Below are positions 26,965 to 64,000 of a DNA stretch of 64,000 bases, piece after piece. The stretch lies in assembly GCA_963924555.1 (NCBI GenBank), contig OZ004583.1, forward strand, positions 2,947,501 through 3,011,500, in the 5' to 3' direction. The notes beneath the pieces were generated by a model. That model was not told where the DNA came from. It ran no database searches and was given only the letters and a program-made list of their open reading frames with translations. Origin of the DNA: Crambe crambe (lineage: Eukaryota > Porifera > Demospongiae > Poecilosclerida > Crambeidae). The stretch's first letter is position 1. Every line of letters begins with the position of its first letter. The position numbers and the translations under genes are program-made.

Positions 26965-28122
26965 TTAATTTTCTTTCTTTTTAGCTTCTATTTCCTTCGT
27001 TTTTCTCTCTTCAGCCTTCTTTTTGGCTTCTTCAGCTTCCTTTTTAGCCTCTTCCTCTTTATGATGAGCGATTAATGCTGTAACCCCTACAGCTGATCCC
27101 ACACCAATTGCACCTCCAATAGCACCACCCAAAACTAGACCAGCTCCAGCTGCCACACCAAAACTTGGAATACCGATAGCCAAAGCACCTATAGTAGCAC
27201 CTATGCCAGCTCCTGTAACACCAGCTGCTGTACTTGCACCGCCACCGCTACCAAGTACTTTTTTTTTGTGCTTCTGGAACCAGGTTTTATGTGGGATGAC
27301 TATGTCTTGTTCTGCAATATCGATTTCAGGATCCACTCTACCCCTCACTTGAAAGCGTTCGAGATTCATCATGAGGAGAGCAATTTGCCCATCATTAGAA
27401 CACTTATTACAGATGGTAAACCATAACTCACTCAACCATGGCTCTGAGTCGTCGTTAAAATAAGGCTTACTTGAAATTCCAGCTGGCACAATAGGAATAT
27501 GATCAGGATTTATTTCGGCTGTAACGAGTGCCTTTTTAACTTCTTCCATCCAATTTGCTATTTTTTCATTAAATTTTGCTTTCATGTTCTTCAGCTCCTG
27601 CTCTTCAAAGAGTGAAATTAAGGTATTTGCAAAAGTCAGGACTATGACACATTTGTCCCATATGTCAGTATCCAAGGCCTTTTTCAGAAGCTTCAGTACA
27701 GAAACATCATTTTCCATCACAACTCTAGTGGGATTAACTGATATACAATATATCAACATATTCACGTTTTTGCAATGTTCTTGTATTTTTTGCACGTAAT
27801 CTTCTTTATCTTTAAAGGCTTTGTTAAAACCTGGAGTATCATATGCAATCACTTCAGCATTACAAAGTGGGACATCTTTTCTTAAACTTTTGATCTCAGT
27901 CGTCTCTTCACTTAATTTACATCCTTCTGTAAAGAACTTTTCCCCAATCAGGGCATTCAGAATTGTACTCTTGCCTGTACCTGTTAGTCCACATGCCATG
28001 ATATTAATCTTTTTTTCCCCTCTAATGGTAGCAAGGATGGCTTTTTTTTGATCTTCAGTGATACGCTTCTCACTGACTAAATGATCAAGAAGTTTAATGA
28101 TATTTGGATCAAAGTCACTCAT
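26965..28122 (-). CDS. AIG1/Toc34-like GTPase with glycine-zipper membrane segment
   Basis: A single-exon gene of 385 aa. Residues 40-52 hold the G1 P-loop (MACGLTGTGKST), DTPG at 95-98 is G3, and LTFAN at 162-166 sits where G4 is expected and resembles the THAN/THAQ type of AIG1/Toc GTPases. Residues about 290-352 form a Gly/Ala-rich hydrophobic block with GxxxG spacing (GAGIGATIGALAIG, GGAIGGAIGVGSAVG), suitable for membrane insertion or oligomerisation. The last 33 residues are a Lys/Glu coiled coil. A role in membrane remodelling or immune signalling, as in GIMAPs, is inference only. Decayed relatives lie immediately upstream at 28620-30072. Confidence 0.8.
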   Translation of the reverse strand: MSDFDPNIIKLLDHLVSEKRITEDQKKAILATIRGEKKINIMACGLTGTGKSTILNALIGEKFFTEGCKLSEETTEIKSLRKDVPLCNAEVIAYDTPGFNKAFKDKEDYVQKIQEHCKNVNMLIYCISVNPTRVVMENDVSVLKLLKKALDTDIWDKCVIVLTFANTLISLFEEQELKNMKAKFNEKIANWMEEVKKALVTAEINPDHIPIVPAGISSKPYFNDDSEPWLSELWFTICNKCSNDGQIALLMMNLERFQVRGRVDPEIDIAEQDIVIPHKTWFQKHKKKVLGSGGGASTAAGVTGAGIGATIGALAIGIPSFGVAAGAGLVLGGAIGGAIGVGSAVGVTALIAHHKEEEAKKEAEEAKKKAEERKTKEIEAKKKEN

Positions 28123-28619
28123 AGTTACTTATGGTTGTAGCTACAATAGTTACAAACTACTTTCTCTTAACTGCTAGCTATAGCCAACATAGCTACTTAT
28201 ATAATCAATTTTGTTGTGGCGTGATCATGCCACCTATATTCATCTCCATTGCAAATGAGCCACCCAGCTACACTATGGAATTCATCACCATGCGATCACA
28301 TTCATGAATGATGGCATTGAAGTTAGCTATAAAAATGCTAACACAGTACATAGAAGGTTAAACAGCAGCAAATCTTACAATGGAAGATTCAAGCAAAGAA
28401 GAAAGCTTCTTGATTTACATGGCTTTTAAATCAAACTTATACACCACTTTTTTTCCTGAATTATACTTAATTGAATTTTACATCTCTTGTACATTTTATA
28501 TGTAGCTTGTAAACTTTACAAGTGTTTAACAGCTTTTAATGCTTTGCGTGAAAAGTGGTGTAAAAAAGCATTACGATGAGAAATTGGACACATGGAAAAA
28601 AAAGAAAAAGATCTGCAAC
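28123..28619. other. Upstream region of the GTPase gene, nothing recognised
   Basis: AT-rich, no open frame or repeat recognised; may hold the promoter of the GTPase gene. Confidence 0.3.
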
Positions 28620-41524: not shown

Positions 41525-42662
41525 TACAGAACAAAGATTGATCCCACTTCCATCCTTCTTATTTCCTTACTTTTTTGAGCAGTGGTCATCCCTACATCTT
41601 TTTTTCATTTCACGAAATGTTTTTTCCCTTACTTGTTAATTATAATGCGGGCATGCAAGAGTGGCAGGCATGTTTTTCCAATCCAAGTTACGTACATAGC
41701 TACATACTAGTATAATTCTTTTAAGTGTGAAATTGTTCTACAGTATCTCTTGCTTGCTATATTATAAAATGAAGAGATCCAGGATAGAACCAACTGTCAC
41801 CCGTCCGAGCCTCCTGTGCAGAAAACATTAACTTTCAGGATCACATTAGCTATATGCAGCTACAGTCATACCTATCTAAGTTGTAGCTATAGCTGTAGTA
41901 ATATGAGGGTGCCTGCTTCATGATTATGGCTAGCTAACCAAGTCTGAACTTCTCTAACTGTATGATAAAGAATTTGTAGATGATATAGTCTAATAGCTAG
42001 ACTAAGAGATCAACAAACATCATGTGACTATATTATTAGAAGCTATGAATAATCACCAGTAACTTATTCTCTGTAGCTACAGTAGCTATACTGGTAGCTA
42101 GTACAAAATGATGTACTTCCCAAATTACTTCTATAGAGATTGTACATTTTGCAGAAGAGGCTCGATCATCACTAGTGTGGGGCTCGCTCTGCTTGCCTCG
42201 TATTTAACTTATGTCATAGCTAATCATGTTCATGCAGACTGCATGAGGCTGTAGCTACGGCCTCAACTCCCATGTTTGCAAGTGAACCTGCAAGCACTAA
42301 AGTATTGTCTACTGAGCTAACTTAGCTACTACTTACGTACATCTCAGATTCATTTTCTAGTATGCAGGACCAATGCGTAGAGTATATAATAATTATTAGC
42401 TAGAGCTATGGTTAGCGTATTGTTACGTGTCCCCTTGAATGAATTTCCCCCTTCAGTGCATGCCCCTCCCCTATAGCTAGAGACTTCTAAAAAATATTTT
42501 CCTACTGGTGTAGCTGCAAGGAATCCCTAGTTAGTTAGTTATTAGTTTACATAGCTGATGATTCGTTGGTTCATGATATGTTTCAGTATCGTACAGTGCA
42601 CACATAAGAACTAGCTAGCTAGCTCATAGTTTGATTCTGATCATTCTTGTACAGAGGTTAAA
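41525..42662. other. Intergenic upstream of the membrane-protein gene
   Basis: AT-rich, no coding potential or repeat family recognised. Promoter elements cannot be assigned by eye. Confidence 0.3.
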
Positions 42663-44408
42663 ATGTCACGTATAATGAACTTACTGTTGGCTCTACTATT
42701 GCTGCTAATATGCCCCAATATCATCATGGCTGATCGAATAGTTAATGCAAGCTTAGCTGCAGGGTGTGAAGAGAATGATTACTGCCCAGCATGGTCACTG
42801 TCAACAATCAAGCAAGATGGTCTAAATACAAGTGAGTGTAGCTGTCAATCTAATGCATTGATACATTGCCAGGAGAATCATGATATATATCTTACATCAA
42901 GTGCTTGTGTGACATATGATAGTGATTTACACTCAGCAATTGCTGGAAATTGTCCTTTCAATGCTCATAAGGTCCACTATGGAAAACAGATATCAGTGCA
43001 CATTTCAGCTGTGAATATGAACCTTACCAAGGTCATGTGCGAACCTCTCAACAGGACTGGACTATTATGCAGCCACTGCATAGAAGGATTAGGACCAGCT
43101 TTATTGAATTATTCCTATCCATGCCTAGAGTGTTCCAAATTAGGTTGGGTGGCTTATTTTTTGGCAACTCTGATACCATCCACGATATTCTTTCTAGTAA
43201 TTTTATGCTTCCGTGTTGATATTCTATCACCTTCAATGAGCTACTTTATTTATCACAGTCAAATGTTCACTTTTCTTGTCCACAGAGTTCCTAATAGTAT
43301 TCTTTCTACACATCCACAAATTACTAAGCTATTGGTTACATTTTATGGCATCTGGAACTTGGAATTCTTCCGAGCTTACATTCCGTCCTTCTGTGTGAGT
43401 AGAGAGATGAACATGAGCACAGTTGTAGCACTAGAATACATTGTTGCTCTATATCCCTTGCTTTTAACTGCATTAATCTATGCAGCGATAGAGATGCATG
43501 CAAGAGGGTTCAGGCCGCTGTTTGTTCTGTGGAGGCCCTTCCATCAATGTAGTCATGACTGTAGAAAAATAGGAAGCATAAGAGGTTCAATCATTAATGT
43601 ATTTGCATCCTTTCTTTACCTTTCCTACAACAAAAATTTGGCCACTTCATATACTCTGCTCTCTTTTGTGCATCTATGTGCCAATAATAACTTTACAGTA
43701 GTTAGTAAAAAGGCAAGCTTTATGTTTGTGAATGCATCGGTATCAATTTCTGAAGCTATTCCACAGTTTATTCTATGCATATCAGTGTCTTCAATATTTT
43801 GCATATTTCCCTTGTGTTTGCTGTTTGCCTATCAACTAAAAGTATTCAGAAAGTGTATATATAAGTTCCCTCTTCTTTGTGAAGTCATCAACATTTTCCA
43901 AGGACATTTCAAGGATGGCACGACTGGTACCCGTGATTACCGTTTTCTTTCTGGACTCTACTTCATGATTCGAATACTTAGTATTGTTACAATCTCCATA
44001 TCAAATGACACGCTCTTTATCAGTAATATATATATTTCCATCATTGTTGTACTCATTTTTGCTTTCTTGCATCCTTATAAGGATAGAAAATACAACTATC
44101 TCGATATTTTCTGGTTTGCCTTTCTAATTCTTTGTAATTTTAATATCTTGTACTTGACTATAGGTCGACATAATGTTTTTGTAGTAGTTATGTCACTTTT
44201 TTTTATTCTTTTGCCCATTCCCTATTTCTGCCTTTTGCTAGTGTGTAAATGTATCAAAAAGGTACAAGCGTGTCGCAAAGGCAGTAAAATAATGTCCAGT
44301 TCTTACTGCTGTTGTTTCAATTTGCGAGAAGAGAATGGAATAGTTGTTGGTGGTGTTCCTTATCCTGATCGACTCCTTAATCCACTTAGGTATGAACAGC
44401 TACAGTGA
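42663..44408 (+). CDS. Orphan multi-pass transmembrane receptor-like protein
   Basis: A single exon of 581 aa. Signal peptide about residues 1-23 (LLLALLLLLICPNIIMA) is followed by a Cys-rich, N-glycosylatable ectodomain of about 135 residues ending LLCSHCIEGLGPALLNYSYP. After that come about seven to eight hydrophobic segments with the conserved stretches EMHARGFRPLFVLWRPFHQC, INVFASFLYLSYNK and FKDGTTGTRDYRFLSGLYF, then a short cytosolic tail. I recognise this architecture from invertebrate (sponge, cnidarian) predicted proteins with no assigned function; it is not a canonical GPCR. Surface receptor or channel-like roles are possible. The ATG is chosen because it gives a good signal peptide; the intronless structure is unusual among its neighbours. 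Confidence 0.7.
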   Translation: MSRIMNLLLALLLLLICPNIIMADRIVNASLAAGCEENDYCPAWSLSTIKQDGLNTSECSCQSNALIHCQENHDIYLTSSACVTYDSDLHSAIAGNCPFNAHKVHYGKQISVHISAVNMNLTKVMCEPLNRTGLLCSHCIEGLGPALLNYSYPCLECSKLGWVAYFLATLIPSTIFFLVILCFRVDILSPSMSYFIYHSQMFTFLVHRVPNSILSTHPQITKLLVTFYGIWNLEFFRAYIPSFCVSREMNMSTVVALEYIVALYPLLLTALIYAAIEMHARGFRPLFVLWRPFHQCSHDCRKIGSIRGSIINVFASFLYLSYNKNLATSYTLLSFVHLCANNNFTVVSKKASFMFVNASVSISEAIPQFILCISVSSIFCIFPLCLLFAYQLKVFRKCIYKFPLLCEVINIFQGHFKDGTTGTRDYRFLSGLYFMIRILSIVTISISNDTLFISNIYISIIVVLIFAFLHPYKDRKYNYLDIFWFAFLILCNFNILYLTIGRHNVFVVVMSLFFILLPIPYFCLLLVCKCIKKVQACRKGSKIMSSSYCCCFNLREENGIVVGGVPYPDRLLNPLRYEQLQ

Positions 44409-45906: not shown

Positions 45907-46361
45907 CTATATGCACTGGTGCTGTAGTTTGCTGAACATGTTTTCTGCCTCTGCCAGTGGTGCTCCTAAAGTCCTAGCTTCCTTGCTATAGGCAGAGAGG
46001 TCTTCAGGAGTCCACGAGAGTACTTTAAACTCAGGGAGATTCAGCATGGAGCAGATATTATAAAAACCAGGTCTTAATGAAGAGTCTGTGTTCCTGCATT
46101 ATAGAAGACAGCCACATACGTACATATATGAAAGACTGACTTACCATGATTTTATCATAACCTCATAAACAATTCTAGGACATCCAGGGGGCGGGGGCAA
46201 GCGATAACCAGTTGAAATTTTCTTAATAACCTATAATAGGAATAATTATTATACGGGAGTGCAAAATATTAATGCATGCACCTCTCCATTGGCTAGTCCA
46301 CTGTATGGTTTAACTCCCAGAGTCCATATTTCATAGAGAACACAGCCATAACTCCAGACAT
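45907..46361 (-). pseudogene. Receptor tyrosine kinase 3' fragment
   Basis: Copies of the last three kinase exons only: part of the [21 protein letters not shown] exon (46361-46282), the [18 protein letters not shown] exon (46230-46145) and the terminal exon (46093-45907). Homology stops abruptly near 46361 before the DFG segment, so no catalytic core remains. The reading frame of the retained exons is open and splice sites are kept, so loss was by truncation and not by point decay. Confidence 0.8.
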
Positions 46362-46863
46362 ATCATAATCACAATAATCATGCATATTCACTATTCTCAT
46401 TACTCACTACATTGAGGCATAACCATGTCAAAACTCAAGAGAGCCATTCAATGCTAAGAACCTTCTCTATCTCTTATTTTTGATGGCTGGCAGTTGTTTG
46501 CTCTCCATATATACTCTTCCCCATATTCCAGTGTGCTGTGCATACGTAATAATAATATTATGTCTGGTTTCTCTAATGACTTGATAAAAGTACATTGGGT
46601 ACTTTAACTTAAATATTGTTTATAGACATCGAGGAGGTGGTAGCTATAGCTATATATTTATTTGTTATGTGCACTCACTTCAGTTGCTGTTTCATATGTG
46701 TTACAGTTCTCATGTTCTTGTTGTACTTGTTTAAAATGGCCACAAAATCTATCTACATAGCTAGCTAGCTAGCTAATAATGGAAAAGAGCTCACCATAAC
46801 ACAAGATGTTAGGTTTCTACACAACACAACAAGTTAATATAATTACGTATGACACTATTGATT

Positions 46864-48665
46864 TTAAGAGTACATATAAGTTTGCTGTAGTTTGCTGAAC
46901 ATGTTTTCTGCCTCTGCCAGTGGTGCTCCTAAAGTCCTAGTTTCCTTGCTATAGGCAGAGAGGTCTTCAGGAGTCCACGATAGTATTTTATAATCGGGGA
47001 GATTCAGCATGGAGCAGATATCATAAAAACCAGGTCTTAATGAAGAGTCTGTGTTCCTGCATTATGTAATGGTTACTTTATTCAATACACAGCTACAATA
47101 CATCAATAATATAGCTGATTCCTAATAGCTACTTAATGAGGTAAGGTGTCAATTTTTTTTCTTGTTTTTTTTAAAGAACACACCTGTTCTTGAACAATCA
47201 GTTAAGGAGCATGAATATATGAAAGACTCAACTTACCATGATTTTATCATAGCCTCATAAATAATTCTAGGACATCCAGGGGGCGGGGCCAAGCGATAAC
47301 CTGTTGAAATTTTCTTAATGACCTATAATTTAGACCATAATAGAAATAATGATTACAGCTAGTAGATATGCACCTCTCCGTTGGCTAGTCCACTGTATGG
47401 TTTAACTCCCAGAGTCCATATCTCGTAGAGGACACAGCCATAACTCCAGACATCACTTGCAGTGGAGTAGAGACGATAATGGAGTGCCTCTGGAGCTGTC
47501 CACTTCACTGGTATCATTCCTCCATGGGACATGTAGTAATTTTCATTATTGAGATCTCTTGAGAGGCCAAAATCTCCTATCTACGTATATGGTCATATAA
47601 GTTATAGTATCACAGCTACTGTATATTAACTAAGGCAAGCTGTTGACAAAATGATTTGATAATAGGCATACTTAACATAGAAACAGTCATGTGAGGCATT
47701 AATAGTAACAGTATACCACATATGAATGGATGTATTAACTGATGTAAGATAGTTTTGTGATTACTAGCTATATGAAAACTATCTTGTCAGATCATACAAC
47801 CATGACTGTGATTGATGTTGCATTATAATTTTAGTGGCATTAGACTGTAGTATACATCTGTGTCTTGACAGCTGCCAAAGTTTAAGATCTAACTACTCTA
47901 TATAACTGTGAACATTTTCTTACCTTGCAAATGTCACTGCCAGAAACAAGAATGTTTCTTGCAGCTAGGTCACGATGGATGTATCCCTTCAGGCTGAGGT
48001 AGCTCATACCACTGGCTATTTGCCTTGAGTAGCAGAGCAGCTGCGATGCCAGCTCTAAGTGATTTGTGGAGCTGTTGTGTAATAAAGAGAATATAATACA
48101 TAGCTACTTCACTATCCAACCAATGGGGCATTGTTGTATACACATTCATGATTGTACAAACCCACCTTTTCTTTTCTGGAGAAGATTATGGGTATGCATG
48201 TTTACCTTGACTGAAGAGCAGGTAAGTGACTTCTCAGGTTTCCTTTGAGGATCAGTTCCATAATGATTTTACACTGAAGCATAAAAGCATGAAGAAGATG
48301 AATGCTACATACTTAGCTAGCTAGCAACCATATAAGTTTGGCTGGATCCAGATTGTTTTGATAGGTGGGATTGTAGCACCACTCATGATGCTCACCCCTA
48401 GTCTGGCAGCTCCGACCCTTTACCTTTACTCCTAGTCTGATGACACCCACCCTCGAGGGTAAAGGGTTAGCACTGCCAGACTAGCTTACCCCTAAGTACC
48501 CCTTATCACCACTCATGTACATACAGTGTATGAAATATGCATAATTATGTAACTTCAAAGTCTCAGAGTTTGAGGGTAATTGTAATTAATGCAGCACGCA
48601 GTTCTTGGGGCACCTTATTCCCAGGCACTCCCACACATAGCACACAGACTTCACTGGCATAGGAC

Positions 48666-48698
<33 letters not shown>

Positions 48699-50416
48699 AG
48701 GCCAGGGCCTCCCCATTATTTTCAGACCCCCCCCCCCCTTAAGTTCAGCTATTATAGTTAGCTACTATAGCTACCACAGCGGAACACTCCTTTTCTTCCC
48801 TTCGTCAAATTAAAACTTATTTAGAACTGAATGTCGACTGAACAACTTGTTATTTCTATAACTGGATATAGCTAACTGGATGTAACTGAGTTCGCTAAAA
48901 CATTTGTATTACTGAACCAACGAAGAATGAATTACTTTGGAGTTTGATTTTTTCTAAAAAGTAATGAGTAGCTAGTATCCCCTCCCCCCCCCCCCCCCCC
49001 TCCTCCCCCCTCCAGTAAAATTGGCATGGTCTTTATTAAAACTTAGGTCTCCTCATTAAAATCATCTTCCTATGCCACTGGACTTAAATAGGAATAAATG
49101 TACTAGGTGGGATATATTGGGGACATATGGTACGGATGTTGGCTTCACTGGCTTGCTAATAGTAAGTGGTAGCTAGGGTGTGACTTGCCGTGGTCACAGG
49201 TATGGTTGAAATTTTTGGAGCACTATAGCTAGTGCACCATTTTCAGGCTTGGGTTGGAAACAAACAGGCCTGGTTTGGAAACAAGGGGGGTATGGAGTGG
49301 GAATTTTTGGAGGACCCATGTTGGCTTCATTGACAGTCCTGTGGTAAGTTAGGGTGTGACTTGCTCATTCACTGTCTGCATGAGTGGTGGCAAAGGGGTG
49401 CTTGGGGATAAGGTGCCCCAAAAATTGTATGCTGTATTATAATCATCTTTGAAGTGACTCATGCATGGTTCACAGGTGTGATGGTTAAAGGAAATGACAG
49501 TTAGTATACACTGAGTTATCTAATGTGTGACCTTGAAAGTACAAGTGCAATATGGATGTGTTATATCTACAGGCCTGGCTTGGAAACAAACAGGCCTTAT
49601 TTAGAAAGAAAAGGTGTGAGAATCTTGTGGAGGACCCATGTGGCTTCATTGGCAAGCCTGTAGGGTATGACTTACCCATGCATTGTATGATTTTCTGCAT
49701 GAGTGGTGGCAAAGGGGTTATTGGGGGGGTAAGGTGCCCTGAAAATTGTGTGCTGCATTACAGTTACACTCAATCTCCGAGAGACATCTTTGAACTGTAC
49801 GTATCCATGGTCACAGCCTCACAGGTGTGATTATTAAAGTTAGTATGCACTAAGTTATCTAATGTATGACCTTGAAAGTACAAGCCAAGTAGTTATGGAT
49901 GTATCATATCTAGCTACAGGCCTGGCTTGGAAACAAACAGGCCTTGTTCAGAAACAAAGGGTGTTGGAGGACCCATGTTGGCTTTATTGCCTGTAGTACA
50001 TAAGTGGTAGCACTGGGTGTGACTTGCTCATGCACTGTATGATTTCCTGCATGAGTGGTGGCAAATGGGTTATTGGGCCTGAAAATTGTATGCTGCATTA
50101 CAGTTACACTCAATCTCCGAGAGACATCTTTGAAGTGACATACTGGTCACAGCCTCACAGGTGTGATTGTTAAAGAAAATAACAGTTAGTATATAATGTG
50201 TGACCTTGAAAGTATAAGCCAAAGTAAAGTGCAATATGGATGTGTCATGTATAGCTACATAAGTAGACCATTCAACCACTTTTGACTATAGATAGCCTTA
50301 TAAGTTAGACTACATAATTAGCTATGGTGCTTATAGTGACATTCCTCTAATTATGTAATTAGCTATAAAATTTCACACAGCTACAGCTGGTACAGCCATC
50401 ATTCAGAGCTTCTTTG

Positions 50417-50453
<37 letters not shown>

Positions 50454-53400
50454 TGTGTGTGTATGCAATTTGAATAATAACAATAACATTAAGTTAGTTA
50501 ATGCATGGAATTTCCTAGATCATACCAGATTGAATAATATTAAATTTTACTGGAGGGCTTTCCCCAGACTCCCAAGATGGTAGCTAGCTATGGCTGTATC
50601 ACTACAAATGACTGGCTCCAGCTCTGAATTTACCATAAGGAATTCCATTATAAGCTATACGTAGATACTCTGCTTAGCAAGTGGGCATGGCTAGGCTAAG
50701 TAGGTATTATCTGGTGTAGCTACTAGCTATATATACAGTGCAGAGGTGGAGCCACCAAAATTTGACTGGTTAGTCGACTTATAGGAAAGTTAGAGCACAT
50801 AGCATACTTTACACACCATCTAGGGGCATGCTCCCTCCCTCCCCCCCCTCCCCCCCCCCATCCCAGAAAGATTTTAAGTTGTCCTAGATTTGCAATCCTT
50901 GAAACAGTGCTGCGTGTGTCTTTTGAAGATATAAAATTTAAAAAAATTCTTCCCATATGCACAGTTTGGAAACTGAATTGAGGTGTGGTTCTTCTGGTAA
51001 TTCAAAAGTGGAATATGTGCTCTCAATGATGTTGTTAACCTCATATTGTAGTGCAACATGTGGTTAATCATTCATGTTGCAATCACAGCATCCATGAATA
51101 ATGGTTGGGACAGAAAAGTGGTCAGGTAAATACTCCCAAACCTGACTGGAGACTCCACCTCTGCAGTGTACCATTTTATCTACAGGCCTGGCTTGGAAAT
51201 AAAAGGAAGGTCAACCCGACCTCTGGATACTTGCAGCACTGAAATTTTGTATATTTACTAAGTAGCTACGTATTATAGTGTAAATATGATAACGTTGTAC
51301 CTTATTCTCTTTAATCAAGATTCCCATGATTCTGACGATGTTTGGATGGTTGAACTGTCCCATGATGGCGGCTTCTTGTAGGAACTTGACCCTCTCCTCT
51401 TCACTTGTTCCATTCTCTATTGACTTCACTGCAACTTCCTCCTCCACCACCTGGTTAGACCCACCCCCAGAGTGAGACCACACCCCTTTGTGCACTGTAC
51501 CGAAGGCACCACTTTCAATGTATGCAGTTTCCCTGAATAGATTAACATTACATATGAAGCTCTAATGATAAGGCTGCCATGTGCCTAGAACCCAGCATCC
51601 ATTGTTACATCCATTCTTACTTGATTTTGCATAAAAACGATGGTTTCTTGTACTAATTTGCATTAATGACTTGAAGGGTAGCTAGTAGTAAGCTATGTAG
51701 GCAACTTACTTAAGCTCTCTTTGAGATATATTGGGTATTCTCAGCTTCTTGAACTGGGTCATCAACTCCCTCTCTTCATTTGAAGGCATCCAGTAGGGAC
51801 TATCGTAGTCATAAAAATCCTCATCTTCTGCTGGAGTGAACTTGAACTCTTTTGCTTTATCAGGTGATAAAGGATTATCATATTCATCCTTTTGAGTCTC
51901 TCCATTTTTGGCAAAGTCGTATTCTCCACTATTCTCATCATCAATCTCTTCATATTCCTTATTGATAGCCATGGAATTTGTAGTTAACGTGAGTGAAGTT
52001 GACATCGCTGTAGCTTCTTTATCACCTTGTAATGCACTGATTTCACACTTGGGATGATTAAGTTTAGCATAATCATTTGGATTGGGCTCCTGAATCGTCA
52101 GTAATAATTCATGTGGAGAGAAAAATTGTACCTTAAATATAGCTACCATAATAATCCAAGGTTGGGTAGATCAATAATAAAAAATATATATTTTTTTATA
52201 CTAGCTACCCCCTATAATGCCTCAAAAGAGAGCTCTCTTTAAGAGCTTTCCAATAGTGTACTTAGTTACAACTTTACACCTATATGACATGACCTTAGTG
52301 GTTAAAAATTACCACATACTTGGGTGGGGGGGGGGGGGGGGGGGGCTTTGATACTAGGCCAATAGAAGCTATGATAGGAGTATCAAAGGCCTCATTTTTT
52401 CAACCACTGAGGTCAGAGCTCTCTTTTGAGACCTACGTATAAATCAAGCTTATATATGGGGTAGTATAATGAAGTTTTATTTAAACAATTATTTTTATGG
52501 TACTTTCGACCCTAGCTACTACTCTTTTGCCTACAAAATCCAAACTATTCACTTACAAGTCTATGGTGAAGTATTATAATTAGTGTAGCAGCTGTTGTGT
52601 ATTATGGTTTAGCTAGTTGTAATCAACTTACTCCTGTATCATCTGAATTAGCAACTACCGTGGCATCCATTTCATATTCATCTACATTGTTTACTTTCCT
52701 CTTGTTTCTCTTTCTGATGTGAAGGGACAGAGCCACACTGATGGCAATAAGTGCAAATAGCAACACTATGCCACCAATACTTGTTGATGTAGCAATAACT
52801 ATCACATTCGGTTGATTTGTACTGCCACAATTAGGACCATAGAAATTCTCAGTACATGTCAGAGTGAAGCTCATATTAATTGTAGCAAATCCAAAGATCC
52901 CTGTGTACATTGTTCTTTCAGTTGTGTTGCCGACAGGAATGGACATATTTATAGCAAATCTGTCTATTAGCTCATCATCACCAATGGGATCAAAATCTAT
53001 GATTTCTAGAAATAGTTGAACTCCATCATTAGGCTAATCATACAGAGGAAGACATTGTTAATATGGTACTATAATCATATACTTTATAACTCACCCACGA
53101 TTCACCAGAGAATGTTATTGGATTTGAGGTTTTAAATGCTGAGTGTGTAAAGGTAACGTTATTACCATCACTTCTTTGGTGTGTTGTAACAAGAGTGGGG
53201 CAGTTCCCTTGATTTTGGTTACGGACATAACTAACTGGTGTTCCTGCTGGTTTCTGACACAGAGAAAAGTAATAGTGGCACATCAAGGATTTAGAACACA
53301 TGCCATCACAGCAATCTTTACAGTCTGCACATTTACGTCCAGGATTATCAAAAGAGTGTATTGTGACTTGTAATTCATAATCACCTAGAGCCATCATCTA

Positions 53401-54969: not shown

Positions 54970-57900
54970 TTAATTAATAAAATAAGTTTGCTGTAGTTTG
55001 CTGAACATGTTTTCTGCCTCTGCCAGTGGTGCTCCTAAAGTCCTAGCTTCCTTGCTATAGGTAGAGAGGTCTTCAGGAGTCCATGAGAGTACTTTGAATT
55101 CAGGGAGATTCAGCATGGAGCAGATATCATAAAACCCGGGCCTTAATGAAGAGTCAGTGTTCCTGCATTATGTAATGGTTACTTCATTCAATACACACAT
55201 CGAAACACAGTTGTCATATTTTTTTTTGTTTTTTGTTTTCTTAAGAACACCTTATCAGTTTACTATGGAAGCCGAGAGGGGCACTTTTTAAAAGTCTTTC
55301 TTCAGTTCTTCATTTGCAGAAGACTAATGCGGTGCATAGCTATGAACAGTAATTGATATTCTGCAAAATTTCAAAGTTTCATAATTTAAATGTGTGTGAA
55401 TTGCATGCACACGTCAACACGCTTGAGTAATGCAATCTTGTGTGATGCCAAATACTTCTCCTAGAGCTTCATCGATCATGGCATGTGCCCAATTAAGGTT
55501 AGACTTCATTTGGAACACCACTTGGGCAGCAAACTCCCTCATCTGAAGAAGTTGTGAAAAATGATAGAACTGAAGATCAAAGGTTAAAAGTTTGGAATAA
55601 TGACCCTTTACTTTGGTGAGTTCCTGCAACTGTGCGCTGCAAATGTGCTACAGATTACCATGGTTATCTAGATCAGAATTTGTTGAGCTTGGAAATGATG
55701 GCTGAATTGTTCAGATCTTTGCCATCCTTCCATAATCCAAGCTACGTACCTGCAGCTGTGAAGACTACCTGTAGACCACACACTTTCTTCTACACAGTAG
55801 TCTCATACATAGATCAGATGGTAACCAGTATAGTATGTACAAGCACTTCGTGGTTTTGACAAAACTTCGATTCGCACCGCACATGCATGTGCTGCAAGTA
55901 TTTGCAACTGAAAAAAGAGTGCCTTTCTTGGGTTCCACAGTTTATAGTGCTATTTTTGAGGAGTATGTCTGGCTTACCATGATTTTATCATGACCTCGTA
56001 AACAATTCTAGGACATCCAGGGGGTGGGGGCAAGCGATAACCAGTTGAAATTTTCTTAGTAACCTATAATGAGAAGAGTTAAATTAAGATCACAAAATGA
56101 TATAGTACATATGCACCTCTCCATTGGTTAGTCCACTGTATGGTTTAACTCCCAGAGTCCATATCTCGTAGAGGACACAGCCATAACTCCAGACATCACT
56201 GGCAGTGGAGTAGAGACGATAATGGAGTGCCTCTGGAGCTGTCCACTTCACAGGAATCATTCCTCCATGGGACATGTAGTAATTTTCTTTATTGAGATCT
56301 CTTGAGAGGCCAAAATCTCCTATCTAAAAATAATAAGTTGATAAGGAGTCTTATTGAGCAATGATTAAAAACAGAGTTAATTGGTATCATTGCAAAGCTT
56401 TTAACTAAGTAGTTCATAAATTTCACAAGCCTTTAACCGCTTTAATGTTTGTGTGATAAGACCCCTTTTCCCAATTACTATCACAGCAGCTGCTACTGTA
56501 GCCACATCATAGATAATTCAGACTACATATAATTTAGCTATGAACTACCCTTAGTCCTTCATCCTCCCCAACCAACTGCATGGCTACGTACAAAACTGAC
56601 TTGTTAGTTTTCAAAATTATATTATTTGGTGTTCATGTTCTAACATGAAGTTAGTTCTACTTACCATTGCTAAGTGAACTCTACAATAGAGAAAGGTATG
56701 TATGTACTCTAAGGATGAACTCTCAAGCTGGATACTAGGGAAATTAAAAGTATTGTGGCAAGCAAAGCTTTAGCCAATGACATCATCGTATTTTGTAACG
56801 GACGTACAGAACTGGAAGAATGTACATATGACAAATTATATATTATAATAGCGCCCTCTTATTCAACCCCCTAGTGGCTTGCTTCACTTGCAATAGTATT
56901 AACATCATTATTTTGATTATACGTAAAAGTTACCATAGAAACAAGTATCACATGTGATGCCTTAATTAATAGTAACAGTCCACCACATATGGATATGCAA
57001 TTACACCACATATGGATTATTTGGTTACTATTGGGTCTTGTGATAGATTATACTGTACTCATAATCATGTGACTGTAGTATGCATCTGATGTCTCAACTG
57101 GCATTAAATTTATTCATTAAGATCTAGCTACTGAACCTTTTTTTACCTTACAAATGTCATTGCCAGAAACAAGGATATTTCTTGCAGCTAGGTCTCGATG
57201 GATGTATCCCTTTAGGCTGAGGTAGCTCATACCACTGGCTATTTGCCTTGAGTAGCAGAGCAGCTGTGATACCAGCTCTGTGTTATTCGTGGAGCTGTTG
57301 TATAATAGATAGAGATACATAATTGTGTGAGCCCACCTCCCACTACTCCGGTAGTGGAATTAACTGGGGGGAGGGAGGTGAATTTTTCACCTCTTGGGCA
57401 TTTATTAATAATTAACAGGTGGCATGTGCATACGTACCTTGACTTAAGAGCAGGCAAGTGACTTCTCAGATTTCCTTTGAGCATCAGTTCCATAATAATT
57501 TTGCACTGAAGCATAAAAGCATGAAGAAGACCATTAGATGCATATTTGCAACTAAATGTAACAGCTATAGTACTTAGAAAATGGTGCATCTTAGAACAAA
57601 AACAAGTCTTGAAAATATGTATGATAGCAGCTAGTATCAAACTGAAGCATGATATGTAAATATTTGTATGTAAGTAGCTATTAGTGTAAATATGATAACC
57701 TTATATGTACCTCATTCTCTTTGATCAAGATTCCCATGATTCTGACTATGTTTGGATGGTCGAACTGTCCCATGATGGCAGCTTCTTGTAGGAAATTGAC
57801 CCTCTCCTCTTCATTTGTTCCACTCTCCATCGACTTCATTGCCACTTCCTCCTTCACCACCTGATCAGACACACCCCCAGAGTGAGACCACACCCCTTTG

Positions 57901-60900
57901 TGCACTGTACCAAAGGCACCACTTCCAAGGTATGCTGTTTCCCTGAATATAGACACAGCTGATTGCACTAAACTGGCAGGTAGTGAATGGCAGACAGCAG
58001 ATACTGCATGACGTTTACATTAGTATAACTGTGTGGCTCAAATTACACCAGCTACTTTTTTTTTGTGATTTTTAGTGTCTGCTGTCTGCCATTTACGCAT
58101 ATACAACCTGATGTAAGGGGGCACTATCCTAAGGGACTAGTCTCAGGGCCCTAAAGATAGTTGCTGCCACCAGAGTTAGACACTACCTAGCTAGTTCCAA
58201 GATAAAATGAATTAATAGCATGAATCATTATTATGTGCATTAGTCAGTCATGTAGGCTGGGGCCTGACACCTGGCAAGTTTAGTGCAATCAGCTATAATA
58301 GTTACATATAGCTAGCTAATACATAAAAGGTGCCATAGAACTCAGCATCTATGCATGATCTTGGTAATTGTAGGCTATGGTATTTGTGGTTTATTTTACA
58401 GATTGATAATCATGTGGTAAAATCATGTGAGTAAGGTGACCATTTACAGACAACAGTTGTTGTAGCTAAGTACATGCAGTGTAATCCTCATTTCTATATT
58501 AGACCATTGCATACTTATGCAACTTACTTTAGTTCCTTTTGAGATATATTGGGTATTCTCAGCTTCTTGAACTGGGTCATCAACTCCCTCTCTTCATTTG
58601 AAGGCATCCAGTAGGGACTATCATAGTCATAAAAATCCTCATCTTCTGTTGGAGTGAACTTGAACTCTTTAGCTTCATCAGGCGATAAAGGATTATCATA
58701 TTCTTCATATTGAGTCTCTCCATTTTTGGCATAGTCGTATTCTCTGCAATTCTCACCATCAATCTCTTCATACTCCTTATCAATAGCCATGGAATTCGTA
58801 GCAAATGTGAGTGAAGCTAACTTTGCTGTTGCTTCTTTATCAATTTGTGATGGATTGGGAGGATTAATTCTTGTATAATTATTTGGATTGGACTCCTACA
58901 ATAATTCATGGATAAAGTTATGGGTCTAATAGAATCCCTGTATAGTGTATACGAACTAATACCAGTGTATTTAATTACCCATGTGCTGTTTTGTGCCTAC
59001 ACAATCCAAAATATGCACTTACAAGTCTATGACGAAGTGAATGTATCTGTAATGAAAATAACAAGTGTTAAACTATGTTGCTTTTAACTAGTTGTAGTCA
59101 ACTTACTCCATCATTCTCTGTATCATCTGAATTAGCAGCCACTGTAATATCCATTTCGTATTCATCTTCATTGTTTACTTTCCTCCTGTCTCTCTTTCTG
59201 GTGTGAAGGAATAGAGCCACACTGATGGTGAATAATATCAGCAGTAGCAACACTATGCCACCAATACTTGTTGATGTAGCGATAACTACCACATTTGGTT
59301 GATTTGTGCTACCTTCACTAGCACTTGGAGAAGTAGTGGCACATATTAGTGTTCCCTGACTGAAGTCAGATGTCATTTGGCAGGTACAGTTCTCTGGACA
59401 TATCAGACCACAATTAGGACCATAGAAATTCTCAGTACATGTTAGAGTAAAACTCATATCTATCGTAGCAAATCTGAAGATCCCAGGGTACGTTGTACTT
59501 TCAGTTGTGCTGCCGACAAGAATTGACACATTGATAGCAAATCTGTCTATTAGCTCATCATTATCATTAGTAATGTTATCATGATCAATGATTTCTAGAA
59601 ATAGTTGAACTCCATCATCAGGCTACAGGAAAATTATAATTTTACATACGTAGTAGCAATGTGTAGTAAATCGTGTGATATTACTTACCCATGATTCTCC
59701 AGAGAATGTAAAATGATTTGAGATGAGTGTGACATTACTGCCATCACTGACTTGGTATGGTGTAAAAAGAGTGGAGCAGTTCCCTTGATTTTGGTCAGAG
59801 ACATAACTAACTGGTGTTCCTGCTGGTCTCTGGCACAGAGAGAAGTAATAGTCACACATTAAGGAGTTAGAACATTGGATTTCACAGCAATCTTGACAGT
59901 CTCTATCTGCACATCTACGTCCAGGATTATCAAAAGAGTGGATGGATACTTGAAGCTCATAGCTGTGAAATTGTGTTTCGCAAAACTGTCCAGTAAAACC
60001 ATTATTGCAGCTACAAACGAAAGAGTTCACTTCATCAATGCAGTGACCGTTGTTACAGTTTGCACTCAAGCAGTCATCAATATTGATGGCACAGTCTTGA
60101 CCAGTGTAACCAGGATCACATATACACGAGAAAGAAGCTAGTTCATCAACACAGCGACCATTATTACAATTTGCACTCATGCACTCATCGATATCGACAG
60201 CGCAGTCGGGACCAGTGTAACCAGGTTGACACACACAGGAGAAGTTGAGGTGACCATCCACACATCTCTGGTTCAGTCCACACTCCACTCCCACACAGTC
60301 GTCTATACTCGTAGCACAGAACTCTCCTGTGAACCCAGGCTCACAGGTGTTACAGTTAGGACCATAGAAATTCTCAGTGCACACTAGAGTGAAATTCATA
60401 TCAATTGTAGCAAATCCAAAGATCCCTGGGTATGTTGTTCTTTCAGTTGTGCTGCCAACAGGAATGGACACATTGATAGCAAATCTGTCTATTAGCTCAT
60501 CATCATTAATGTCATCATGATCTATGATTTCTAGAAATAGTTGAACTCCATCGTCAGGCTACAAGAGTATGATAGTTATGCAGTAAGTGGCTACAGAAAA
60601 TTGTGTGGTACGTATATATAACTCACCCATGATTCTCCAGAGAATGTTATTGGATTTGAGACATTGAATGCCAAATGTGTAAAGATAACATTACTGCCAT
60701 CACTTCTTTGGTGTGATGTAACAAGAGTGGAGCAGTTCCCTTGATTTTGGTCATTGACATAACTAACTGGTGTTCCTGCTGGTCTCTGACACAGAGAGAA
60801 GTAGTACTCACACATTGAATTATTACACTCTTGTTCACAGCAATCTTGACACTCCATATCTGGACATCTACGTTCAGGATTATCAAAAGAGTGGATGGAT

Positions 60901-62030
60901 ACTTGAAGTTCATAGCTGTGGAATTGTGTTTCACAAAACTTTCCAGTAAAACCATTATTGCAGATGCAGGAAAAAGAAGCTACCTCATCAACACAGTAAC
61001 CATGGTTACAGTTAACACCAACACATTCATTAATATTAATACCACAGTCTGGACCAGTGTAACCAGAATCACAGATACACGAGAAAGAAGGTAGTTCATT
61101 AATACAGCGACCATTATTACAATCTGCACTCAAGCACTCATCAATATCGATAGTGCAGCTGGAACCAGTATAGCCAGGCTGGCACCCACAGGAGAAGTTG
61201 AGGTGACCATCCACACATCTCTGGTTCAGTCCACACTCCACCCCCACACAGTCGTCTATACTAGTAGCACAGAACTCTCCTGTGAACCCAGGCTCACAGG
61301 TACAGTTATCAAGACACATACGATTACAGTTAGGACCATAAAAATTCTCAGTGCACACTAGAGTGAAATTCATAATAATTGTAGCATATCCAAAGATCCC
61401 TGGGTATGTTGTTCTTTCAGTTGTTCTACCTACTGGAATGGAGACATTGATGGCAAATCTGTCTATTAGCTCATCAGTGAAAATATTATCATCATGATCT
61501 ATGATTTCTAGAAATAGTTGAACTCCATCGTCAGGCTACAAGAGTATAATAGTTATGCAGTAGCTAAGTAGCTACAGAAAACAGTGTGGTATAACTTACC
61601 CATGATTCTCCAGAGAATGTTATTGGATTTGAGACATTGAATGCCGAATGTGTGAAGATAACATTACTGCCATCACTTCTTTGGTGTGTCGTAACAAGAG
61701 TGGAGCAGTTCCCTTGATTTTGGTCATTGACATAACTAACTGGTGTTCCTGCTGGTCTCTGACACAGAGAGAAGTAATAATCACACATTAAGGAGTCAAA
61801 ACATTGTCGTTCACAGCAATCATCACACTCTATATCAGGACATCTACGTCCAGGATTATCAAAAGAGTGTATTGTGGCATGTAACTCATAACCTCCTTGA
61901 GCCATCACCTATTATTACAGATGTAGTTCATAAAGGTTTGTAGTTGGCAATTATACACATTATTGCTGGCTATTGAACTTACCAGATATGATGTGAGTAG
62001 CAATGAGTGGAAGAGAATACTGAACATCAT
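54970..62030 (-). CDS. Receptor tyrosine kinase with three Notch-ligand-like units and EGF repeats; kinase frameshifted as written
   Basis: Exons (-): 62030-61983, 61908-61600, 61535-60627, 60558-59689, 59622-59107, 59046-59023, 58896-58528, 57942-57711, 57505-57438, 57294-57147, 56323-56117, 56063-55978 and 55162-54970 (3979 nt). Signal peptide, then three units of MNNL-like domain ([23 protein letters not shown]) plus DSL-like start ([14 protein letters not shown]). Units one and two are each followed by an EGF-like half and three EGF repeats (DIDECLSADCNNGRC, cbEGF type). The third leads to a TM helix. The intracellular part has YEEI, QYEEYDNPL, an intact P-loop [20 protein letters not shown] and TAPEAL. 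The 58896-58528 exon has a net +1 nt (near 58860) versus the 47-53 kb paralogue, putting the kinase out of frame and giving an early stop unless corrected by splicing, or unless it is a sequence error. A hairpin lies at about 57986-58093. Confidence 0.75.
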
Positions 62031-62862: not shown

Positions 62863-64000
62863 TCAATTAATAAAATAAGTTTGCTGTTGTTTGCTGAACA
62901 TGTTTTCTGCCTCTGTCAGAGGCGCTCCTAAAGTCCTAGCTTCATTGCTATAGGCAGAGAGATCTTCAGGAGTCCATGAGAGTACTTTATAATCGGGGAG
63001 ATTCAGCATGGAGCAGATATCATAAAAACCAGGTCTTAATGAGGAGTTTGTGTTCCTGCATTATGTAATGGTATATGGTACTATATTATATATTTGCATA
63101 TTCGATACACACTTCAAAAAACATGTAGTTCCCATAGTAGTTTTTACCTTAGCATGGTGATATGTAGCCTCGTTCCTATTTTTTTAATGGGCCTGGGAAC
63201 GAGGCTATATGCTTCATGACCTTGTTGTTATTTTATTTATTTTTTTTATATTTATTCATTTATTTATTTCTTATTTATTTTTTGCTTTTTTTTATTCTTG
63301 ATCAATCAGTTTGCAGAATTAGTTTTTCAAGGGGATTAAGCTATGTATGACAGGCTGGCTGACTTACCATGATTTTATCATAACCTCATAAACAATTCTA
63401 GGACATCCAGGGGGTGGGGGCAAGCGATAACCAGTTGAAATTTTCTTAATAACCTATAATAAGAAGAGTTAAATTATGACCACAAAATGATTATAGTACA
63501 TATGCACCTCTCCATTGGCTTGGCCACTGTATGGTTTAACTCCCAGAGTCCATATCTCGTAGAGGACACAGCCATAACTCCAGACATCACTGGCGGTGGA
63601 GTAGAGACGATAATGTAGAGCCTCTGGAGCTGTCCACTTTACAGGAATCATTCCTCCATGGGACACGTAGTGATTTTCTTTATTGAGATCTCTTGAGAGG
63701 CCAAAATCTCCGATCTAAATATCAATAATTATAATAATGTGCAAAATATCACAGCAGCTGCTTTACAGTTCATTTAGCAGCTATTTCTTCATGGTAGTTG
63801 ACCAGTACACGAACTCCAAATATTATTTGTGAAAATAGCAAGTCAGTTTTATGTTATTGTAGCTATGGGCGCGGGCACACATTGGAGGATGAGGATTAAG
63901 GTTCAATATGTCCCGTATAGTCTATGATGTAGCATATTCAATAGAGAAGGGTACTCTTAATGTCTATGATTACATAAGGATGAATTCTCAAGCTGGCATT
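62863..64000 (-). CDS. Receptor tyrosine kinase, 3' exons only (gene runs off the right edge)
   Basis: Exons 63714-63508 ([34 protein letters not shown]), 63453-63368 (GYRLPPPPGCPR) and 63055-62863 (terminal exon, LRPGFYDI, stop TGA). Lengths (207, 86, 193 nt) and phases equal those of the two complete paralogues. The upstream exons lie outside the window; 63715-64000 is intron. Retained motifs are intact, so this may be a functional third member. Confidence 0.8.
63165..63207. repeat. Mini-hairpin relic of the tagcctcg transposon family
   Basis: tagcctcgttcc ... ggaacgaggcta enclose only about 19 bp. The outer bases match the ends of the 758-bp element at 9099-9856. Intronic in the right-edge kinase gene. 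Confidence 0.6.

Follow-up and report, generated by a model that had tools for sequence, protein, structure and literature searches.

In Notch ligands, the N-terminal C2 domain (MNNL) and the DSL domain form two separate sites for Notch (PMC5538765), and aspartates in the beta5-beta6 loop of the Jagged1 C2 domain bind calcium and phospholipid (PMC3888931). Amphimedon encodes five Deltas, all of which keep the MNNL cysteines even though software recognized the domain in only one of them (PMC3482393), cnidarians exhibit unusual DSL arrangements (PMC2770060), and a choanoflagellate protein carries both MNNL and DSL (PMC6040629). Receptor tyrosine kinases (RTKs) are numerous in early animals, and their ligands are few or largely unknown (PMC6485061). 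Here we describe a predicted gene, designated G1, from a 64,000-nucleotide stretch of the Crambe crambe genome (the window; C5:2947501-3011500, C5 being contig OZ004583.1 of a 143-Mb genome in 119 contigs), in which three modules of the Notch-ligand C2 type are joined to a transmembrane (TM) helix and a tyrosine kinase. We consider it most likely, with a probability of roughly 0.72, that G1 is a single-pass RTK with an ectodomain derived from a protein of the Delta type and that it works as a cell-contact receptor.

The original prediction, made from the sequence alone, had placed an RTK with a tandem Delta/Jagged-like ectodomain at positions 54970..62030 of the window, and the start and stop of our spliced model coincide with these bounds. 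G1 consists of 13 exons and 12 introns, all GT-AG, and encodes 1325 amino acids in a frame that is open to the stop and free of internal stop codons. In silico, the chain has the layout of an RTK, in which a signal peptide is followed by three cysteine-rich modules and their EGF repeats, then by one TM helix and a cytoplasmic tyrosine kinase. Its features, all on the minus strand, are as follows.

54970..62030, minus: whole gene G1, RTK with three Notch-ligand-type C2 modules (spliced model)
61983..62030, minus: exon 1, start codon and signal peptide (MMFSILFHSLLLTSYL; spliced model, hydropathy peak at residue 1)
61600..61908, minus: exon 2, C2 module unit 1, first half, ending at the invariant W (spliced model, module alignment)
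61356..61535, minus: C2 module unit 1, second half (start of exon 3), with acidic DxD...D loop (spliced model, alignment, profile comparison)
61269..61355, minus: unit 1 DSL remnant, C-x8-C-x3-C-x3-C-x1-C-x8-C (sequence, Pfam DSL)
60930..61268, minus: three EGF repeats after unit 1, end approximate (Pfam EGF/EGF_CA matches)
60627..60920, minus: C2 module unit 2, first half (end of exon 3; spliced model, module alignment)
60382..60558, minus: C2 module unit 2, second half (start of exon 4; spliced model, module alignment)
60316..60381, minus: unit 2 DSL remnant with four cysteines only, C-x8-C-x2-C-x8-C (sequence)
59980..60315, minus: three EGF repeats after unit 2, end approximate (Pfam EGF matches)
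59689..59967, minus: C2 module unit 3, first half (end of exon 4; spliced model, module alignment)
59440..59622, minus: C2 module unit 3, second half (start of exon 5; spliced model, module alignment)
59341..59439, minus: unit 3 DSL remnant (sequence)
59209..59295, minus: TM helix, bounds by eye (hydropathy maximum 2.86 at residue 832)
58528..58895, minus: exon 7, juxtamembrane and rich in Tyr motifs (YEEI, YDYAKN, YDNPLS; spliced model, motif scan)
54970..57942, minus: exons 8-13, tyrosine kinase domain and C-tail (PF07714, PDB kinase matches)

The TM assignment follows a single strong hydropathy peak, which by eye covers about residues 822-850. The kinase carries the catalytic motifs, including APE, and PF07714 was matched by three of the four kinase pieces scanned, the last exon being the piece with no match. 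Among the best 60 of 2627 PDB matches to the spliced kinase, one EGFR entry came first, followed mostly by Eph receptors (EphA2) and FAK; the tyrosine kinase set of this genome is very large. The O-fucose consensus (C-x4-S/T-C) was not found in the G1 ectodomain.

The repeated module of the original prediction is borne out in the spliced protein, where the pattern YELxVxIHSFDN...CC...YYFSLCQ...FSGESW / PDDGVQLF... occurs three times in modules of ~160 amino acids that alternate with EGF repeats. When unit 1 was searched against 177,635 PDB sequences (phmmer), only two matches were returned at E<=10 and both are Delta-like (E 0.002 and 0.91). With a profile built from 11 RTK modules, three matches came up at E<=1, all of them Delta (0.0015, 0.029 and 0.15). 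Six Delta-type modules of the same genome match Delta, Serrate and Jagged entries of the PDB with E-values down to 1e-29. Comparison of the RTK profile with a profile of these six modules (hhalign) yielded a probability of 99.8% (E 3.6e-28, 167 columns), and the C2 part by itself, with the DSL region removed, still yielded 99.5% (E 3.2e-22); none of 100 column shuffles exceeded 4.0%, and the reversed profile reached 0.1%. The RTK alignment (A1) comprises 11 modules and omits the two of L030 (near-copies of those of L031), the second of L035, and those at C5:3031-3034, 3043 and 3137-3179 kb; the Delta alignment (A2) comprises six modules selected by their DSL matches and omits L012, L023, L024-L027 and L029. 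Pfam was applied with its curated cut-offs of 22.5 bits for MNNL and 24.2 bits for DSL. At E<=1, three of the 11 RTK modules matched MNNL (best 5.8e-6), and when five RTK modules were scanned singly, one exceeded the cut-off (26.3 bits) and one fell slightly under it (20.1 bits); the former is found at C5:3131 kb, with kinase exons downstream of it at 3128.6-3126.8 kb. Gene structure is likewise shared, as an intron splits each G1 module directly after the invariant Trp, the same holds for both of the further RTK loci considered, and outside the C5 array the GT donor lies one codon past this Trp in 11 of the 12 loci considered (with weak donors in L012 and L024, and L029 as the locus that does not fit).

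The Pfam search of G1 itself, which had been suggested with the original prediction, came out negative, since MNNL stayed under threshold and a longer stretch of G1 scored just 13.1 bits against DSL, across 15 residues. These results, together with a single-sequence PDB E-value of only 0.002, would suit an unrelated cysteine-rich domain that came to resemble Delta by convergence. However, the C2-only comparison far exceeds its shuffles and the module recurs with a kinase in 14 gene-like runs (see below), and thus the resemblance is not due to chance; the paralogue above the curated cut-off, the common intron and the co-occurring EGF repeats also speak against convergence, which we regard as extremely improbable. 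Because paralogues, PDB matches and profiles all agree, we can conclude from sequence comparison that the G1 modules are homologues of the N-terminal C2 domain (MNNL) of Notch ligands.

An acidic D-x-D...D stretch is invariant or nearly so across the 11 RTK modules. By our own correspondence, it would be the region that aligns with the calcium- and phospholipid-binding aspartates of Jagged1 (PMC3888931). One possible, clearly less favored reading is a lipid-sensing RTK whose C2 modules bind phospholipid directly and in a calcium-dependent manner, for example exposed phosphatidylserine or a microbial membrane. Such a receptor would represent an intrinsic equivalent of the Gas6/TAM system. The conservation of the acidic stretch and the avidity expected from three tandem copies are consistent with it, as is the calcium-dependence of phospholipid binding by Notch-ligand C2 domains (PMC3888931). 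However, the loops of these C2 domains vary, and Delta-like3 N-EGF1 lacks liposome binding (PMC5538765).

The MNNL-DSL-EGF order that was originally proposed for the ectodomain holds for the C2 and EGF parts and fails for an intact DSL domain. Pfam recognizes three EGF repeats after unit 1 and three after unit 2, as expected of a Notch ligand (the paralogue G0 has none), and unit 1 does end in C-x8-C-x3-C-x3-C-x1-C-x8-C as had been noted. The remnant of unit 3 repeats the first five cysteines of this pattern (C-x8-C-x3-C-x3-C-x1-C) and has its sixth Cys 12 residues further. None of the 11 RTK modules matched Pfam DSL at E<=1, compared with six of the six Delta modules, a figure that is no independent control because those modules were picked by their DSL matches. 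In the RTK modules, the six-cysteine DSL domain of Notch ligands is reduced to its first C-x8-C, and G1 is consequently not a Notch ligand by membership. A shortened DSL is not specific to the RTKs, as it also occurs outside the array in L054 and L064. These features bear upon a further reading, in which G1 is a reverse-signaling Notch ligand that binds the animal's own Notch via its C2 domain and DSL remnant and reports the contact through its kinase. The C2 homology to Delta and four matches to the Notch-type LNR domain in the genome are in its favor, as is the separate site that C2 forms with Notch EGF12 in the canonical complex (PMC5538765). A search of the genome for the Notch NOD domain had no match, and its controls likewise had none, so that it carries no weight either way. 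However, the reduced part is the DSL domain, the one in contact with Notch EGF11, and when G1 unit 1 is aligned with DLL4, a gap separates DSL cysteines three and four, the region where F207 of Jagged1 presumably lies. The F207A change alone lowers Notch binding by Jagged1 to background (PMC3888931). We therefore judge this reading unlikely; the missing DSL middle and the conserved acidic stretch together make canonical Notch binding by the G1 modules doubtful and favor a function of the C2 type.

A search of the genome with the module returned 119 matches at E<=1, and G1 belongs to a tandem array. Among the matches listed, C5:2.99-3.28 Mb contains 23 gene-like runs. In 14 of these, C2 halves precede kinase exons that share their strand, and the other nine have kinase exons only; one of the 14 is just a fragment, and one with four modules may represent two genes. 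The genome was searched exon by exon, and the run count covers the kinase matches of C5 that fall within 2.99-3.28 Mb. The two neighbors of G1 within the window are paralogues.

45919..53397, minus: paralogue G0, one C2 module (no EGF repeats), then TM and kinase exons, with C-lobe exons partly duplicated (tblastn of the G1 protein, open reading frames)
62863..64000, minus: paralogue G2, 3' kinase exons, ectodomain past the window end (open reading frames, tblastn, codon comparison)

The 3' part of G0 (45919-48276, minus) contains two sets of C-lobe/C-tail matches by tblastn (46359-45919 and 47580-46873), which suggests a partial duplication or alternative ends. 

The recurring order also bears upon the possibility that G1 is in fact two adjacent genes that only seem joined, one for a Delta-like protein that lacks a kinase and the other for a kinase of its own. 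Its exons are indeed joined by prediction, and a short-tailed Delta-like protein does exist elsewhere in the genome (L062). However, exon 5, which encodes C2, TM and the cytoplasmic start, closes with a phase-0 GT donor, the frame stays open across exons 6-13 as far as the kinase stop, and the same order is found in 14 runs; two separate genes are very unlikely. The proposal of ectodomain, TM helix and kinase in one chain thus stands as a single predicted gene model. Both halves are under purifying selection. When each G1 exon was paired with its best match (so that the single G0 module was used three times and G2 exons maybe twice), omega was 0.38 for the ectodomain (855 codons) and 0.19 for the kinase (301 codons) against G2, and 0.33 (413 codons) and 0.22 (306 codons) against G0. 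For the juxtamembrane exon 7, omega was 0.11 in the comparison with the next gene and 0.41 in that with G0. Two further kinases, L055 (C5:3052.6-3053.6 kb) and L056 (C12:2402.6-2402.8 kb), are 76-79% and 66% identical to the G1 exons, respectively, and are preceded by other open frames with no match among the listed C2-module matches, pointing to an exchange of ectodomains within one kinase lineage.

Delta-like relatives with no kinase match are found in a C12 array (L053) and at loci on C13, C19 and C10 (L053, L054, L062, L063 and L064). Like G1, these five have a C2 module, a shortened or missing DSL middle, and EGF or Thr/Pro-rich stretches; unlike G1, they have no kinase exons in pieces of 5-7 kb, the pieces of L054 and L064 stopping before the 3' end. 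L062 is a single open frame with C2, EGF repeats, TM and a short tail ending in FDNPLYAA, and its alignment with G1 unit 1 and the EGF repeats spans 296 columns at 32% identity (E 3e-33). Open reading frames indicate a TM and short tail in L053 and L063 as well. Across 19 C2/DSL loci outside the array (3-7 kb per stretch; L023 and L029 lie outside this set), the G1 kinase had no match at E<=1e-3. In a tree of 21 C2 modules, the RTK modules cluster together (91/72) next to two modules from C13; the tree is otherwise weakly resolved, with 11 of its 18 inner branches open and five long rows, and does not settle their origin. The simplest picture would be a Delta-like ectodomain fused onto a locally amplified kinase lineage, a direction of fusion that we infer.

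Several of these relatives have further features of note. The juxtamembrane YDNPLS of G1 resembles the FDNPLY of the L062 tail and is possibly a leftover of a Delta-like tail motif. L053 (1015-5626, plus, on C12) has tandem C2 modules with Thr/Pro-rich repetitive spacers and no kinase match; judged by its open reading frames, it continues into a hydrophobic segment and a tail with PPPDY. L054 (644-3652, minus; C13:5940644-5943652) is a single 1002-amino acid frame that encodes the second half of a C2 module, a DSL of reduced length and ~20 similar EGF repeats, in a C13 region that is rich in Delta-like matches and has no tyrosine kinase among the matches listed. L012/L016 (C15:6461207-6466914) has a C2-like start followed by several tandem DSL domains, comparable to the multi-DSL genes of cnidarians (PMC2770060).

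Taken together, we favor a cell-contact receptor at the cell surface, with three C2 modules derived from a Delta-type protein, each with a reduced DSL remnant and with EGF spacers between them. The modules would dock onto a partner on a neighboring surface, candidates being membrane lipid, as for the Jagged C2 domain, or an EGF-type or other surface protein. Clustering of the multivalent chains would then activate the kinase in trans, and phosphorylation of the Tyr-rich juxtamembrane tail (YEEI and others) could recruit SH2 or PTB proteins. A quite unlikely variant is a self-contained contact system, in which array members would recognize one another between cells, homo- or heterophilically, and signal by tyrosine phosphorylation. 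It is suggested by the alternation of C2 and calcium-binding-type EGF repeats in these chains, since such domains bind each other in Notch-Delta; if true, the array, whose roughly 14 genes differ in their number of modules, would be a recognition repertoire. Some observations weigh against the receptor that we favor. G1 is modeled from genomic sequence alone, so its chain is predicted, and its three modules all scan below the Pfam MNNL threshold, both as single exons and as spliced units. An AlphaFold2 model from a 7-row window-only alignment, in which unit 3 was read through a 66-nt in-frame intron (TAG=Q), reached a pLDDT of just 32.7, too low for a comparison of folds. The count of 14 in 23 runs refers to listed matches and includes two weak C2 matches (E 0.007 and 0.59), dN/dS measures constraint and is silent on whether the halves share one transcript, with ectodomain codons partly counted against the same paralogue exon, and lipid binding by the G1 modules would rest on analogy with the Jagged C2 domain. 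On balance, the three-module receptor that was originally observed is confirmed in the model, and its interpretation is supported in part, the exception being the DSL domain.

Elsewhere in the window, an open frame at 26965-28128 (minus) encodes an AIG1/GIMAP-type GTPase (PF04548), and a 592-amino acid open frame at 42630-44408 (plus) resembles a multi-pass membrane protein with a cysteine-rich start and has no Pfam match at E<=0.001. Two cathepsin L-like genes, of 121 PF00112 matches in the genome, were read and both have Cys in the active site.

We found no receptor combining MNNL/C2 with a tyrosine kinase in the open-licence PMC literature searched (a prior description elsewhere is possible), and the available excerpts of kinome, Eph and Amphimedon transcriptome papers (PMC8662651, PMC6485061, PMC3447736) do not mention one. 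A related description concerns a protein tyrosine kinase of Ministeria vibrans that shows EGF-type similarity to the Notch-pathway proteins DLL, JAG and NOTCH (PMC11594159); unlike the case of G1, this similarity is described via repeated cysteines, and the terms MNNL and DSL are absent from the text. With Eph and other animal RTKs, G1 shares a single TM and a tyrosine kinase, whereas ephrin-binding, FN3, Sushi and SAM domains, as found in Eph, are missing from the Pfam matches of the ectodomain pieces and last exon scanned. With Delta, Delta-like and Jagged, it shares the N-terminal C2 (MNNL) domain, the first C-x8-C of DSL, EGF repeats and a single TM, and with the Deltas of its own genome an intron position within one codon. 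Unlike these ligands, which have a non-catalytic tail, G1 has a reduced DSL, carries the module three times, and has a tyrosine kinase inside. If transcribed as modeled, it would be a clear case of a ligand ectodomain turned receptor, in which the C2 function (membrane or surface recognition) is separated from the DSL function (Notch binding), and the module of a known ligand family would have become the head of a tandem-amplified receptor family.

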